Origin: Falsihalocynthiibacter arcticus | GTDB taxonomy: Bacteria > Pseudomonadota > Alphaproteobacteria > Rhodobacterales > Rhodobacteraceae | Length of the DNA stretch: 64,000 nt | Assembly: GCF_000812665.2 (NCBI RefSeq) | Contig: NZ_CP014327.1 | Span: 1,319,501 to 1,383,500 of the forward strand | Direction of reading: 5' to 3' | Shown here: positions 18,338-22,193 of the stretch, in pieces | How the letters are laid out: each line of letters opens with the position of its first letter | Numbering within the stretch: the stretch's first letter is position 1 | Notes under the pieces: model-generated | Seen by the model: only the letters and a program-made list of their open reading frames with translations | Database searches by the model: none | What the model was told of the DNA's origin: nothing | Translations under genes and position numbers: made by a program

Positions 18338-19933
18338 CTAGGTAGCGTCGAATTCCAAAGGCTTCACGGATTGGAACAAGCCCGTATCCGTGAGTTTTTT
18401 CAGGACGGTGTCTGATACTTTTCCGTCCACATACAACAGTGCAATCGCGTCGCCGCCTTGATCTGCACGACCCAAAGTGAAGTTGGCGATATTGACGCCG
18501 TTTTCACCCATGATGCCACCCAATGTCCCGATAATGCCCGGAACATCTTTGTTGGTGGTATAGAGCATGTGGGCGCCGACTTCGGCGTCGATGTTGATGC
18601 CTTTGATCTGGATGAAACGTGGCTTGCCGTCGTTGAAAACAGTTCCCGCAATCGAGCGTTCCCGTTTCGCCGTGGCGATCGTTACCTTGATATAAGCATC
18701 AAACGCACCCGATTTTTCCTGCGTGGTTTTGCTGATTTTAATGCCACGGTCCTTGGCGATAACCGGTGCCGAAACCATGTTCACGTCTGGGTTTGTCGAC
18801 TGCATGATGCCCGCAATCGCGGCGCATTCGAGGGCGGCCAAGTTCATTTCCGCAACCGTGCCATCATAGGTGATGTTGATGGCCTTGATGGGTTCGTCGG
18901 TCAATTGGCCGATGAACGCGCCAAGGTGCTCGGCAAGTTTGATCCAAGGGCCCATGATTTTGGCTTCTTCGGCGGTAACCGATGGCATGTTGAGTGCATT
19001 TGTGACGGCCCCAGTGAGGAGGTAGTCGGACATTTGCTCGGCAACTTGCACCGCGACATTTTCTTGGGCTTCAGTGGTGGACGCGCCAAGGTGCGGCGTG
19101 CAAACCACGTTGGGAAGGTTGAACAACGGGCTGTCCGTTGCTGGCTCAACTTCGAAAACGTCGAAAGCCGCGCCCGCGACATGGCCGGATTTGAGGGCTT
19201 CGGCAAGGTCCGCTTCAATCACCAGACCGCCGCGCGCACAGTTGATAATGCGCACACCTTTTTTCATTTTCGCAATTGTCTCGGCGTTGATCATGCCGCG
19301 TGTCGCGTCGGTTGCAGGCACGTGCAGCGTGATGAAATCGGAACGCTCAAGCAATTCGTCGAGTTCTACTTTGGTAACGCCAAGTTTCGCCGCGCGCTCT
19401 TCCGAAAGGAAGGGATCATAAGCGATCACTTTCATTTTCAGACCAACAGCCCGGTCACAAACGATGCCACCAATGTTGCCCGCGCCGATCACGCCGAGGG
19501 TTTTATGCGTAAGCTCAACACCCATAAATTTGGATTTTTCCCATTTGCCCGCATGTGTGCTGGCGCTAGCTTCTGGGATTTGACGCGCCACCGCAAACAT
19601 CATCGCAATTGCGTGTTCGGCGGTTGTGATCATGTTGCCAAACGGCGTGTTCATCACGATCACGCCTTTCTTGGACGCCGCAGGGATATCAACGTTGTCC
19701 ACCCCGATGCCAGCGCGCGCGATGACTTTGAGGTTGTCGGCAGCAGCGAGGATTTTTTCGGTAACTTTGGTTGCCGAGCGAATGGCCAAGCCGTCATAGT
19801 CTTTGATCTTCGCGAGCAGCGCGTCCTTGTCTTTGCCAAGGTTGGGTTCGAAATCTACGTCGATTCCACGGTCGCGGAAAATTTGAACAGCAGCGTCGCT
19901 GAGTTTGTCGGAAACGAGAACTTTAGGTGCCAT
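18338..19933 (-). CDS. serA: D-3-phosphoglycerate dehydrogenase
   Basis: First step of serine synthesis: 3-phosphoglycerate to 3-phosphohydroxypyruvate with NAD. This is the long form (531 residues): an N-terminal D-isomer-specific dehydrogenase with the Rossmann motif GAGNIGGIVCDRA near 150 and catalytic-site contexts INCARGGLV, the Glu in VFEVEP and the His in CTPHLGAST, then an ASB/intervening domain (about 320-450) and a C-terminal ACT domain (DVPGIIGTLGGIMGENGVNIANF) that usually mediates serine feedback. It follows serC with an 83-base gap holding a strong hairpin. A 509-codon open frame on the opposite strand is a composition shadow. Confidence 0.96.
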   Translation of the reverse strand: MAPKVLVSDKLSDAAVQIFRDRGIDVDFEPNLGKDKDALLAKIKDYDGLAIRSATKVTEKILAAADNLKVIARAGIGVDNVDIPAASKKGVIVMNTPFGNMITTAEHAIAMMFAVARQIPEASASTHAGKWEKSKFMGVELTHKTLGVIGAGNIGGIVCDRAVGLKMKVIAYDPFLSEERAAKLGVTKVELDELLERSDFITLHVPATDATRGMINAETIAKMKKGVRIINCARGGLVIEADLAEALKSGHVAGAAFDVFEVEPATDSPLFNLPNVVCTPHLGASTTEAQENVAVQVAEQMSDYLLTGAVTNALNMPSVTAEEAKIMGPWIKLAEHLGAFIGQLTDEPIKAINITYDGTVAEMNLAALECAAIAGIMQSTNPDVNMVSAPVIAKDRGIKISKTTQEKSGAFDAYIKVTIATAKRERSIAGTVFNDGKPRFIQIKGINIDAEVGAHMLYTTNKDVPGIIGTLGGIMGENGVNIANFTLGRADQGGDAIALLYVDGKVSDTVLKKLTDTGLFQSVKPLEFDAT

Positions 19934-20016: not shown

Positions 20017-21159
20017 TTATTGAGCGGCGATCTCGGCGTTGAACGCCCAGTCGAGCCACGGCATCAACGCCGCAACATCGGAGGCTTCAATCGTGCCACC
20101 ACACCAGATCCGAAGACCCGCCGGCGCATCGCGGTAGGCACCGATATCCAGCGCAACACCTTCGTTCTCGAGGCGCTTTGCAACGGCTTTAGCGAAAGTC
20201 GCACCATCCTTGATCCGCGCATCCGTAAACTTCACGCAAACCGAAGTTGTGGAGCGAATAGCAGGGTCCGCCGCGAGGAATTCAATCCAGTCATGTGTCT
20301 CGACAAACTTGGAAATCTCGGCAGTATTTGCATCCGCACGAGCGATCAAACCCTTAAGGCCACCTTGTTTTTTGGACCATTCCAGCGCCACAAGATAATC
20401 TTCAACACAGAGCATCGAAGGCGTGTTAATTGTTTCGCCGCTAAAGATGCCGTCGATCAATTTGCCACCTTTGGTAAGGCGGAAAATCTTGGGCAGGGGC
20501 CAAGAAGGTGTATAGTTTTCAAGGCGTTCCACGGCACATGGGCTTAGGATCAACATCCCGTGCGCCGCTTCGCCGCCCAGCACTTTCTGCCAGCTAAAGG
20601 TTGTAACGTCGAGTTTATCCCATGGCAGGTCCATCGCGAATGCCGCCGAAGTGGCGTCGCAAATGGTCAGGCCTTCGCGGTTCGCGGGGATTGCGTCGCC
20701 GTTGGGCATCCGCACACCAGAGGTCGTTCCATTCCATGTGAAAACAACGTCCTTGTTGTAATCAACGGCGGTCATATCGACGATTTCGCCATAGTCTGCG
20801 GTGCGCACATTGGCTTCGATTTTGAGCTGTTTCACGACATCCGTGACCCAGCCAGCCCCGAAGGATTCCCACGCAACCATTTCTGCGGGACGTTCACCCA
20901 AAAGGGACCACATCGCCATTTCCATCGCGCCAGTATCCGAAGCGGGGACAATGCCAATTTTATAATCTGTAGGGATTCCAAGGATTTCGCGGGTATTTTC
21001 GATCGCGGCCTTGAGTTTTGCTTTGCCGACAGCTGCACGATGCGAGCGGCCCAAAGGCGCGTCAGCGAGATCGTTTAATGTCCAGGAAGCAGGTTTGGCA
21101 CATGGGCCAGAAGAGAAACGCGGATTGGCCGGGCGCGTTGCCGGAGTCGTGGTAGCCAT
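20017..21159 (-). CDS. serC: Phosphoserine aminotransferase
   Basis: Second step of serine synthesis: PLP-dependent transamination of phosphohydroxypyruvate with glutamate (also used in B6 synthesis). 380 residues from the ATG complementary to 21157-21159, preceded by GAGG at good spacing; the open frame runs 39 codons further up, but that stretch is the RNA leader. Family marks are the N-terminal [15 protein letters not shown] and [18 protein letters not shown], with the PLP lysine in [11 protein letters not shown]. It resembles the archaeal/alphaproteobacterial group of SerC more than the E. coli one. It heads the serC-serA operon. Confidence 0.94.
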
Positions 21160-21260
21160 TGATGGTATCCTCACAGATATAAGCCCTTCGTTGGGGAAGG
21201 GTGTCCCACGGATCGAGATAGAGGGCTTCAATGACTGGCGCAAGCCGCTAAATTGCGCTA
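21160..21260 (-). promoter_or_regulatory. Probable serC leader RNA with two mutually exclusive hairpins
   Basis: The transcribed minus strand ahead of serC contains CGCCAGTCATTGAAGCCCT, then CCGTGGGACACCCTTCC, then GAAGGGCTTATAT. CCCTTC (complement of 21196-21201) can pair with GAAGGG (21184-21189) over a short loop. Alternatively AAGCCCT (21222-21228) can pair for 7 bases with AGGGCTT (21181-21187). Both use the same AGGG bases, so only one can form. A conserved serC leader motif (Rfam 'serC', reported by the Corbino et al. survey of alphaproteobacterial leaders) sits exactly here in related bacteria, and the GTGGGACAC segment matches my memory of it. The ligand, if any, is unknown. The match was not computed. 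Confidence 0.6.
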
Positions 21261-21314: not shown

Positions 21315-22193
21315 ATGTATATAGCCACGCTCCTTACCTGCCCCACTTCTCCCACGCTTAGCCGCGAGACCGTTGAATCCCTGCGAAATGCTTGGGGTGG
21401 GGGCGATGCTATTTGGCTTTCTGTTGGCGAAGCGGCGGAGTTTGTCGTTGCGGATATGCCGCTAAACCTATGGGAAGTTTGGGAAAACCTTCAGTCCATG
21501 GGGGTGGATTTGATCGTGCAGCCGCGCGCAAATCGCGTGAAGAGAATGCTGCTCGCCGATATGGACAGCACGATGATCGAGCAAGAATGCATCGACGAAT
21601 TGGCCGATGAAGCCGGCGTTGGCCCGCGTGTTGCTGACATTACGGCGCGCGCAATGAACGGTGAGTTGGACTTTGACGGCGCTTTGCGCGAGCGCGTGGG
21701 CTTGCTCAAGGGACTCGACGAATCCGTCATCGATCAGGTTTTGGAAACACGCATTACCTTGATGCCCGGTGGCCCCGTTCTTCTCGCAACCATGAAGGCA
21801 AACGGCGCTTATGCTGCCCTCGTTTCGGGTGGGTTTACCGCCTTTACCGCCAAGGTCGCGGCCACGCTAGGGTTCGACGAAAATCGCGCGAACACCCTTA
21901 TTATCAAGGACGGAAAGCTTAGTGGCGAGGTGGGAACACCCATTCTTGGACGGCAGGCAAAAGTCGACGCACTTGAACAAATCACTACCCGTTTGGGGAT
22001 TTCGGAAACGGATGTCCTTGCTGTCGGGGATGGTGCGAACGATCTTGGGATGCTGGGCCGCGCGGGTTCTGGGGTTGCTCTGCATGCCAAACCGACGGTT
22101 GCCGCCCAATGTGATGTTCGCATTAACCACGGTGATTTGACGGCGCTACTTTACCTCCAAGGCTATGCCAAAACTGATTTTGTAGATGTTTGA
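21315..22193 (+). CDS. serB: Phosphoserine phosphatase
   Basis: Last step of serine synthesis, a HAD-superfamily phosphatase of 292 residues. HAD motif I is LLADMDSTMIEQECIDEL (nucleophile and acid/base Asp near residue 80), motif II is the Ser in LVSGGFTAF, and motif IV is AVGDGANDLGML. The roughly 75-residue N-terminal part is the short regulatory region of many SerB proteins. It is divergent from serC, so both arms of the pathway start from the same 155-base intergenic region. The stop lies eight bases inside the next gene. Confidence 0.95.
   Translation: MYIATLLTCPTSPTLSRETVESLRNAWGGGDAIWLSVGEAAEFVVADMPLNLWEVWENLQSMGVDLIVQPRANRVKRMLLADMDSTMIEQECIDELADEAGVGPRVADITARAMNGELDFDGALRERVGLLKGLDESVIDQVLETRITLMPGGPVLLATMKANGAYAALVSGGFTAFTAKVAATLGFDENRANTLIIKDGKLSGEVGTPILGRQAKVDALEQITTRLGISETDVLAVGDGANDLGMLGRAGSGVALHAKPTVAAQCDVRINHGDLTALLYLQGYAKTDFVDV

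Follow-up and report, generated by a model that had tools for sequence, protein, structure and literature searches.

A Predicted 5′-Terminal Pseudoknot in the serC Leader of Falsihalocynthiibacter arcticus and the Putative Use of the Same Leader DNA as an Integrase Attachment Site in Relatives

Introduction

Small pseudoknot aptamers placed near the Shine-Dalgarno sequence, such as those of the preQ1-I and SAM-II riboswitches, act on translation. A further leader element, the serC motif, has counted among the orphan riboswitch candidates since 2005; in the part of the original report that was available, it consists of two stems, the second of which sequesters the ribosome-binding site in its 3′ side and GNRA loop, with a promoter directly upstream (PMC1273637). 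According to the same part of the text, in-line probing of an Agrobacterium tumefaciens RNA, which began at –46, supported both stems, and the structure of this RNA was left unchanged by serine, threonine, PLP, pyridoxal, pyridoxine, pyridoxamine and 4-pyridoxic acid (PMC1273637). A 2018 update (Greenlee et al.) is said, in the portion of text available, to add conserved sequence and structure to serC (PMC7266159), and the pseudoknot described below may already be in print. The original prediction for the DNA studied here knew of no ligand for the motif; in agreement, none is named in the literature that we found, and the seven published compounds, in the text available, were without effect.

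Here, we compare the serC leader found in a window of 64,000 nucleotides (the whole stretch of DNA that was analysed) from Falsihalocynthiibacter arcticus with the leaders of other Alphaproteobacteria, and describe the same leader DNA as a putative chromosomal attachment site of integrated elements in relatives.

The serC Leader in the Window and Its Distribution

The leader and its neighbouring genes are arranged in the window as follows.

21160..21211, minus strand: serC leader, Rfam RF00517 (cmscan, model positions 1-52 of 52)
20017..21159, minus strand: serC, phosphoserine transaminase (TIGR01365, NF002841)
18338..19933, minus strand: serA, phosphoglycerate dehydrogenase (TIGR01327), downstream of serC
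21315..22193, plus strand: serB, phosphoserine phosphatase (TIGR00338), divergent from serC

The feature is a member of the known family RF00517: cmscan with the full model scores it at 67.6 bits against a gathering threshold of 35 (E 9.1e-13 over the window), its last base directly precedes the ATG of serC on the same strand, and it has two stems with the ribosome-binding site in the hairpin that carries the GNRA loop. The original prediction had recognised the published serC leader motif at this place and had named the lack of a hit with the Rfam covariance model as one half of what would refute it; the model was run and the match was found. As in the published description, in the part available (PMC1273637), the leader lies before serC-serA in an alphaproteobacterium, with two stems, the Shine-Dalgarno sequence in a GNRA hairpin and a promoter upstream. 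By folding energy, the predicted transcript of 63 nt is no more stable than shuffled versions of it (z = –0.24, with 83 of 200 shuffles doing as well), so that the case rests on comparison, that is, on the Rfam match and on covariation.

Among 385 sampled Alphaproteobacteria, 115 genomes gave one RF00517 match each, and serC was the next gene in 114 of them. The remaining match, L115, was rejected as a false hit, having neither serC nor a fit to the core, and was removed from later leader counts. A core-only model of 29 nt found one leader in each of 126 of the 385 genomes, namely the 114 and 12 more that RF00517 had missed, all of which precede serC; no target other than serC was found among these 126 matches. 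Absence of a detected leader does not imply absence of the gene, since 54 of 80 genomes tested, out of the 259 with no model match, carry a TIGR01365 serC. In two of 27 leaders inspected (L138 and L157), the core was found by eye despite the lack of a model match.

Two other stretches upstream of serC, L120 (Azospirillum oryzae, upstream of 1983) and L142, have no RF00517 core and share the stretch CTTTTAAGGTCCG before the start codon, followed, by eye, by a part rich in CCC and GGG and then by AGGAAGT; this is possibly a promoter plus a different leader. L120, together with L121 and L122, represents plasmid-borne serC genes (of Azospirillum, Methylorubrum and Agrobacterium sp. T29), which have unrelated neighbours; these stretches carry no annotated serA, and a leader core was not seen in them by eye.

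A Core That Fits an H-Type Pseudoknot

The comparison of leaders brings out a core of 24 nt with a constant layout: GGG, three nucleotides, an arm of six nucleotides, CCC, AAC or ACC, and a second arm of six nucleotides. In the window its parts, in 5′ to 3′ order of the RNA, are the following.

21205..21207, minus strand: 5′ strand of S1, GGG, the pseudoknot helix (co-change in leaders)
21202..21204, minus strand: L1, ACA, which crosses S2 in three bases (the last of them is A in 111 of 114 leaders)
21196..21201, minus strand: 5′ strand of S2, CCCUUC (five of six pairs with changes on both sides, 99.5% of cells paired)
21193..21195, minus strand: 3′ strand of S1, CCC, in the hairpin loop (co-change with GGG)
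21190..21192, minus strand: L3, AAC (AAC in 83, ACC in 30 and GCC in 1 of 114 leaders)
21184..21189, minus strand: 3′ strand of S2, GAAGGG, containing the AGGG of the original prediction (covariation)

Both the core sequence GTGGGACAC (minus strand, 21201-21209) and the hairpin CCCUUC/GAAGGG (21196-21201 with 21184-21189), to which the original prediction had drawn attention, are thus present. In addition, the layout fits an H-type pseudoknot with S1 of 3 bp, L1 of 3 nt, S2 of 6 bp, L2 of 0 and L3 of 3 nt, a structure that is well supported by covariation among the leaders. The loop CCC and the upstream GGG occur in 114/114 RF00517 leaders and in 126/126 leaders of the core model, and this very invariance means that the sample of 126 carries no information for or against the pairing of S1. 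A scan of named relatives (the best 80) revealed AGG together with a loop CCU in Agrobacterium and others. Over 243 serC leaders, GGG/CCC is found in 223 and AGG/CCU in 20, and the mixed states AGG/CCC and GGG/CCU in none; S1 has, hence, one co-varying pair (GC to AU in 20 of 243) and two invariant pairs. In the search pattern behind 115 of the 243 leaders, the two inner pairs of S1 were fixed, as were portions of L1 and L3, but the outer pair was left unconstrained, so that mixed states would have been visible. The 20 of 243 are no estimate of frequency, because the set is enriched for low-scoring leaders, the 30 lowest-scoring of 279 genomes having been chosen, which enriches AGG/CCU (among about the best 150 places in the 279). 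On a quick SerC tree of 118 proteins, of which 116 have a readable core (96 and 20), with 27 of 114 inner branches starred, the S1 state changes at least five times, and at least two of these changes are forced by starred branches.

Taken together, S1 and S2 are paired in 99.7% of cells and reach a covariation score of 0.570, against 0.184 for shuffled and at most 0.169 for slid arrangements (100 distinct cores); L031, with a one-base insertion in the 3′ arm of S2, was excluded from alignments A1 (98 of 99 distinct cores) and A2 (100 of 101). Bases of the loop therefore pair outside their hairpin, with compensatory change at one of the three pairs. This differs from the serC motif as described in 2005, the available text of which has two stems (PMC1273637), and from the RF00517 consensus structure, in which two stems are nested and the first ten bases are unpaired. 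The core resembles preQ1-I and SAM-II in being a small pseudoknot close to the Shine-Dalgarno sequence; in those riboswitches, however, the Shine-Dalgarno sequence lies in or adjoins the pseudoknot, whereas in the serC leader it lies in a separate GNRA hairpin and L2 is 0.

Promoter and Predicted 5′ End of the Message

A promoter scan, which looked for the best TTG-N15-19-xA pair within 50 nt of GGG, found in the window two boxes separated by a spacer of 17 nt (score 6.0).

21238..21243, minus strand: predicted –35 box, TTGCGC
21215..21220, minus strand: predicted –10 box, TATCTC, 7 nt before GGG

Promoter-like pairs are present in 124 of 126 leaders, with a score of at least 7 in 108, a score reached in shifted control windows by 8/125, 7/125, 1/125 and 7/123. 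In 116 of the 124 leaders with a promoter-like match, 6 or 7 nt separate the –10 box from GGG and, when the usual spacing between a –10 box and the transcription start is applied, the mRNA is predicted from this fixed distance to start at GGG or at the base preceding it. The 5′ strand of S1 is, thus, the predicted extreme 5′ end of the message. A pairing of the 5′ end with the serC start (CGUGG/CCACG in the window fold) was also considered and dropped, as it occurs in 88 of 126 leaders against 84.3 (sd 4.4) in shuffled ones, which is no signal.

This position raises the question of whether the 5′ end itself could be the sensor, the start nucleotide or the nucleotide pools setting the number of S1 pairs, as in the pyrC gene of Escherichia coli, where nucleotide pools shift the start nucleotide, or whether protection of the 5′ end from decay is the main role of the pseudoknot. 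Such roles would suit a promoter spacing that puts the predicted start at S1, and a co-varying S1 pair that includes that first base, but serC as the sole downstream gene found suggests a serine-specific signal, and we regard them as improbable.

The Shine-Dalgarno Hairpin and the Alternative Structures

The second element of the leader follows a few bases downstream.

21166..21179, minus strand: P2 hairpin, UAUCU-GUGA-GGAUA, GNRA loop closed by U-G (pattern in relatives)
21168..21172, minus strand: Shine-Dalgarno sequence GAGGA, within P2

A second short hairpin near the start codon had been foreseen in the original prediction, and this is the one. A GNRA hairpin closed by U-G and holding the Shine-Dalgarno sequence is found in 111 of 114 leaders, where the next pair is always C-G and the outer pairs co-vary; the CUGNRAGG pattern, with the 12 extra leaders included, is present in 117 of 126.

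The proposal that the leader has the shape of a control element was borne out as to translation, the ribosome-binding site lying inside a hairpin, and failed in its second part, a switch made of two mutually exclusive hairpins that compete for the AGGG segment. AGGG is not part of the short hairpin near the start codon, and the longest alternative partner of this segment is AAGCCCU (21228-21222), which can form with AGGGCUU (21187-21181) a stem of 7 bp that does exist in the window. Its upstream arm, however, adjoins the predicted –10 box and lies in the promoter region, upstream of the predicted transcription start; shuffling of the partners gives 9.6 (sd 2.9) leaders with a stem of this kind of at least 7 bp, and 10 of the 126 leaders have one, and the stem is absent from the four same-family relatives compared (L001, L002, L003 and L007). 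Since the arm precedes the predicted start and the stem frequency is at chance level, the alternative hairpin is neither conserved nor inside the predicted transcript and the competing-hairpin switch is rejected; we give it hardly any credence. What the comparison indicates instead is two helices without a shared base, forming a pseudoknot, and then a separate Shine-Dalgarno hairpin.

Regulation through a leader peptide also seems very improbable. A GTG at 21209 opens a frame of 12 codons, the TGA of which overlaps the Shine-Dalgarno sequence. The window has this frame open, as do 12 of 126 leaders, among them those of four of the five genomes of the window's family in the sample (L001, L002, L007 and L008); on the other hand, it is missing in 114 of 126 leaders and, in those that have it, the RNA core largely dictates its letters.

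Two sets of exceptions to the pairing of pseudoknot and hairpin were observed. In nine leaders (L112-L114, L128-L130, L133, L134 and L136) the core is kept and the CUGNRAGG hairpin is missing, with a different or weak Shine-Dalgarno hairpin in its place; they appear to be a variant platform, below or near the RF00517 cut-off. In small Rhizobiaceae genomes (L279, L281, L283 and L285), by eye, the pseudoknot half is gone or decayed and the Shine-Dalgarno hairpin is kept before serC. A core without the hairpin and a hairpin without the core imply that neither part strictly needs the other, and both exceptions would fit separable sensor and output parts.

The Same Leader DNA as a Putative Attachment Site in Relatives

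In relatives, part of the leader is repeated at the borders of integrated elements, and the segment of the window that matches these repeats is given below.

21187..21209, minus strand: attB equivalent, unoccupied in the window (matches repeats bounding integrated elements in relatives)

At least five of 297 Rhizobiaceae genomes carry two RF00517 matches (among the matches listed). In four of them (G470, G566, G573 and G605) the second copy consists of a core that gives way to unrelated sequence; the fifth, G563, has two leader copies on different contigs, one of them at a contig end, and was excluded from the element count. Both copies lie on one contig in three of the four genomes, 10,791 bp apart in G566 and 34,739 bp apart in G573, in the same direction in both, and about 39.6 kb apart, from the coordinates, in G605; in G470 they are on different contigs. 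The blocks common to both copies fall inside the core and measure 23 bp in G566, 19 in G573, 27 in G605 and 24 in G470, and in the flanks 9-29 of 60 bases match, with the exception of 41 of 60 upstream in G573. The copy on the serC side has the core, the hairpin and the start codon, while the distal copy has a promoter-like sequence and the core, followed in three of the four genomes by a convergent integrase (domain PF00589), the aligned end of which is 19-39 nt from the distal core. No match to the G605 integrase was found in the G573 genome at E 1e-50, and its integrase may thus be of another type. Direct repeats, therefore, flank the element and an integrase is adjacent to one of them.

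The 10.8-kb element of G566 encodes a primase, an HNH endonuclease, a large terminase, a portal protein, a head protease, a major head protein, an excisionase-like protein and the integrase, two of the ten reading frames tested being without a match. This gene set, known here from ten reading frames, is similar to that of capsid-forming phage satellites. The serC leader rebuilt beside this element has an S2 with one mismatch. In three leaders (L259, L264 and L269) the 3′ arm of S2 reads GAGCGGG, with an additional C within the stem; L264 is a site occupied by an element, and the extra C may therefore be a footprint of integration in L259 and L269.

The G605 integrase was then used as a query in 248 genomes of the window's family and in the 297 Rhizobiaceae, giving 6 matches in the former and 16 loci in 15 genomes in the latter; the genome of the window has no match at E 1e-50. 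Integrases at least 48% identical to the query have a serC-leader core about 20-75 nt past their aligned end at 13 of 14 loci, nine of these cores being found by pattern and four by eye (L323, L328, L336, with one C missing, and L337, altered), and the fourteenth locus, L333, has no such core beside it. None of the eight loci with integrases less than 43% identical has one. Internal stop codons in the integrase match of L324 (1), L327 (3) and L335 (1) indicate that some of these genes may be decayed. The neighbour at L324, L326, L327 and L328 is serB, as in the window.

Searching IMG/VR with the core pattern retrieved 16 contigs (L307-L322) which, having been found by the exact pattern, are uninformative on how often the core is altered. 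An integrase 47-63% identical lies 49-97 bp from the core in five of them (L307, L309, L315, L318 and L321). Seven run on into the hairpin and serC, as judged by a serC match in L310, L312, L316 and L322 and by the start and first codons, by eye, in L308, L313 and L320; L311, L314 and L317 end at or just past the hairpin, and L314, L316 and L320 have an integrase at the far end. In L319 the core has neither integrase nor serC alongside in the stretch inspected. Cores seen beside the integrase clade fall within L298 (G566), L299-L302 (G573 and G605), L307-L322 and L323-L337. A Bradyrhizobium phage, ppBeUSDA76-2, has a 54% identical integrase, with which its record begins, and inspection of two end stretches did not reveal a core.

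As regards expression, 14 copies on the serC side (from four genomes and ten contigs) could be compared: in eight, a promoter-like pair spaced by 17 nt lies 7 nt ahead of GGG (score 5-9), and in the remaining six the best promoter-like match is spaced differently (score 5-8). In the leader that again stands before serC, the 3′ part is that of the host, and the element has brought in the 5′ part along with the promoter-like sequence.

These data strongly support the view that the same leader DNA is, in relatives, a putative chromosomal site of attachment for one clade of tyrosine integrases. In its full form, the proposal is that a cis-regulatory leader would act as attachment site in Rhizobiaceae, in the family of the window and in other alphaproteobacterial contigs, that the crossover would fall inside the pseudoknot, and that lysogeny would rebuild the switch and leave serC-serA behind a promoter supplied by the element; we consider this very probable. 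The elements would include prophages and smaller satellite-like elements, integration being read from the repeats and from the position of the integrase. Attachment sites in tRNA and tmRNA genes, as far as the available text describes them (PMC11476347), are similar in that a conserved RNA-coding repeat of about 20-30 bp is used, a tyrosine integrase is adjacent and the function of the target is kept. In serC, by contrast, the target is a cis-acting mRNA leader located just behind its promoter, and the element must consequently carry a promoter too; the 5′ side of this target comes from the element.

A search of the openly accessible literature did not find, among the papers listed, the serC leader described as an integrase attachment site. 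In the available parts of two papers (PMC2245857 and PMC2864759) the mentions of serC are confined to the published riboswitch candidate and the enzyme, and neither serC nor phosphoserine occurs in the available text of a study of integration hot spots in Sinorhizobium meliloti (PMC11476347) or in that of a study of Rhodobacteraceae prophages (PMC8224337). The attachment-site role in relatives is probably new, as far as searched.

A Model for the Control of serC and serA

The reading that we favour, and hold to be rather probable, is a 5′ aptamer-like pseudoknot combined with a translational expression platform, acting as an OFF switch of serC and serA when serine is sufficient. Transcription would begin at GGG or one base before, and the message would open with an H-type pseudoknot formed by the pairing of this GGG with the loop CCC of S2. 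Slightly further downstream, the short U-G-closed GNRA hairpin would sequester the Shine-Dalgarno sequence of serC. A signal of serine sufficiency would bind or stabilise the pseudoknot, onto which the GNRA loop may dock, and the Shine-Dalgarno hairpin would thereby be held shut, lowering the translation of serC and, with it, of serA. At the level of sequence, the comparison of leaders establishes both pseudoknot helices, the hairpin that holds the Shine-Dalgarno sequence, a promoter at a fixed distance and serC as the sole downstream gene found; from these we infer the OFF direction, the coupling of the two modules and a small-molecule signal. A conserved, compact and covarying structure joined to an expression platform is what is expected structurally of a riboswitch, against which stand the L2 of 0 and the lack of an obvious ligand pocket.

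Either a small molecule or a protein may act as the signal. Control by a protein, which would attach to the pseudoknot and thereby lock or open the Shine-Dalgarno hairpin, by analogy with PyrR as set out in the available text of Corbino et al., is possible, if rather doubtful: it would agree with the failure of seven small molecules, in the published text available, and with a small core, a sequence-fixed loop and the L2 of 0, but no protein is known to do so, and the computed data do not separate a protein from a metabolite.

Under the aptamer model, the position of the pseudoknot at the predicted start of the mRNA means that an RNA to be tested must begin at GGG or AGG and be complete. In three Agrobacterium leaders (L179, L180 and L234) the A of AGG is at –47 and, if the spacing in strain C58 is the same, the published RNA would be without the first base of S1. 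The stronger suggestion that the RNA tested in 2005 had missed the whole GGG is weakened, as two Sinorhizobium leaders (L117 and L173) have GGG starting at –46. A renewed ligand test on the full 5′ end would be the direct experiment.

The attachment site offers an independent view of the leader, in which its 5′ half would have been swapped in nature together with the promoter, the copy on the serC side keeping the core. Mobile elements would, in this manner, insert into a core amino acid pathway and probably re-drive it, which suggests a widely shared integration site for alphaproteobacterial genetics.
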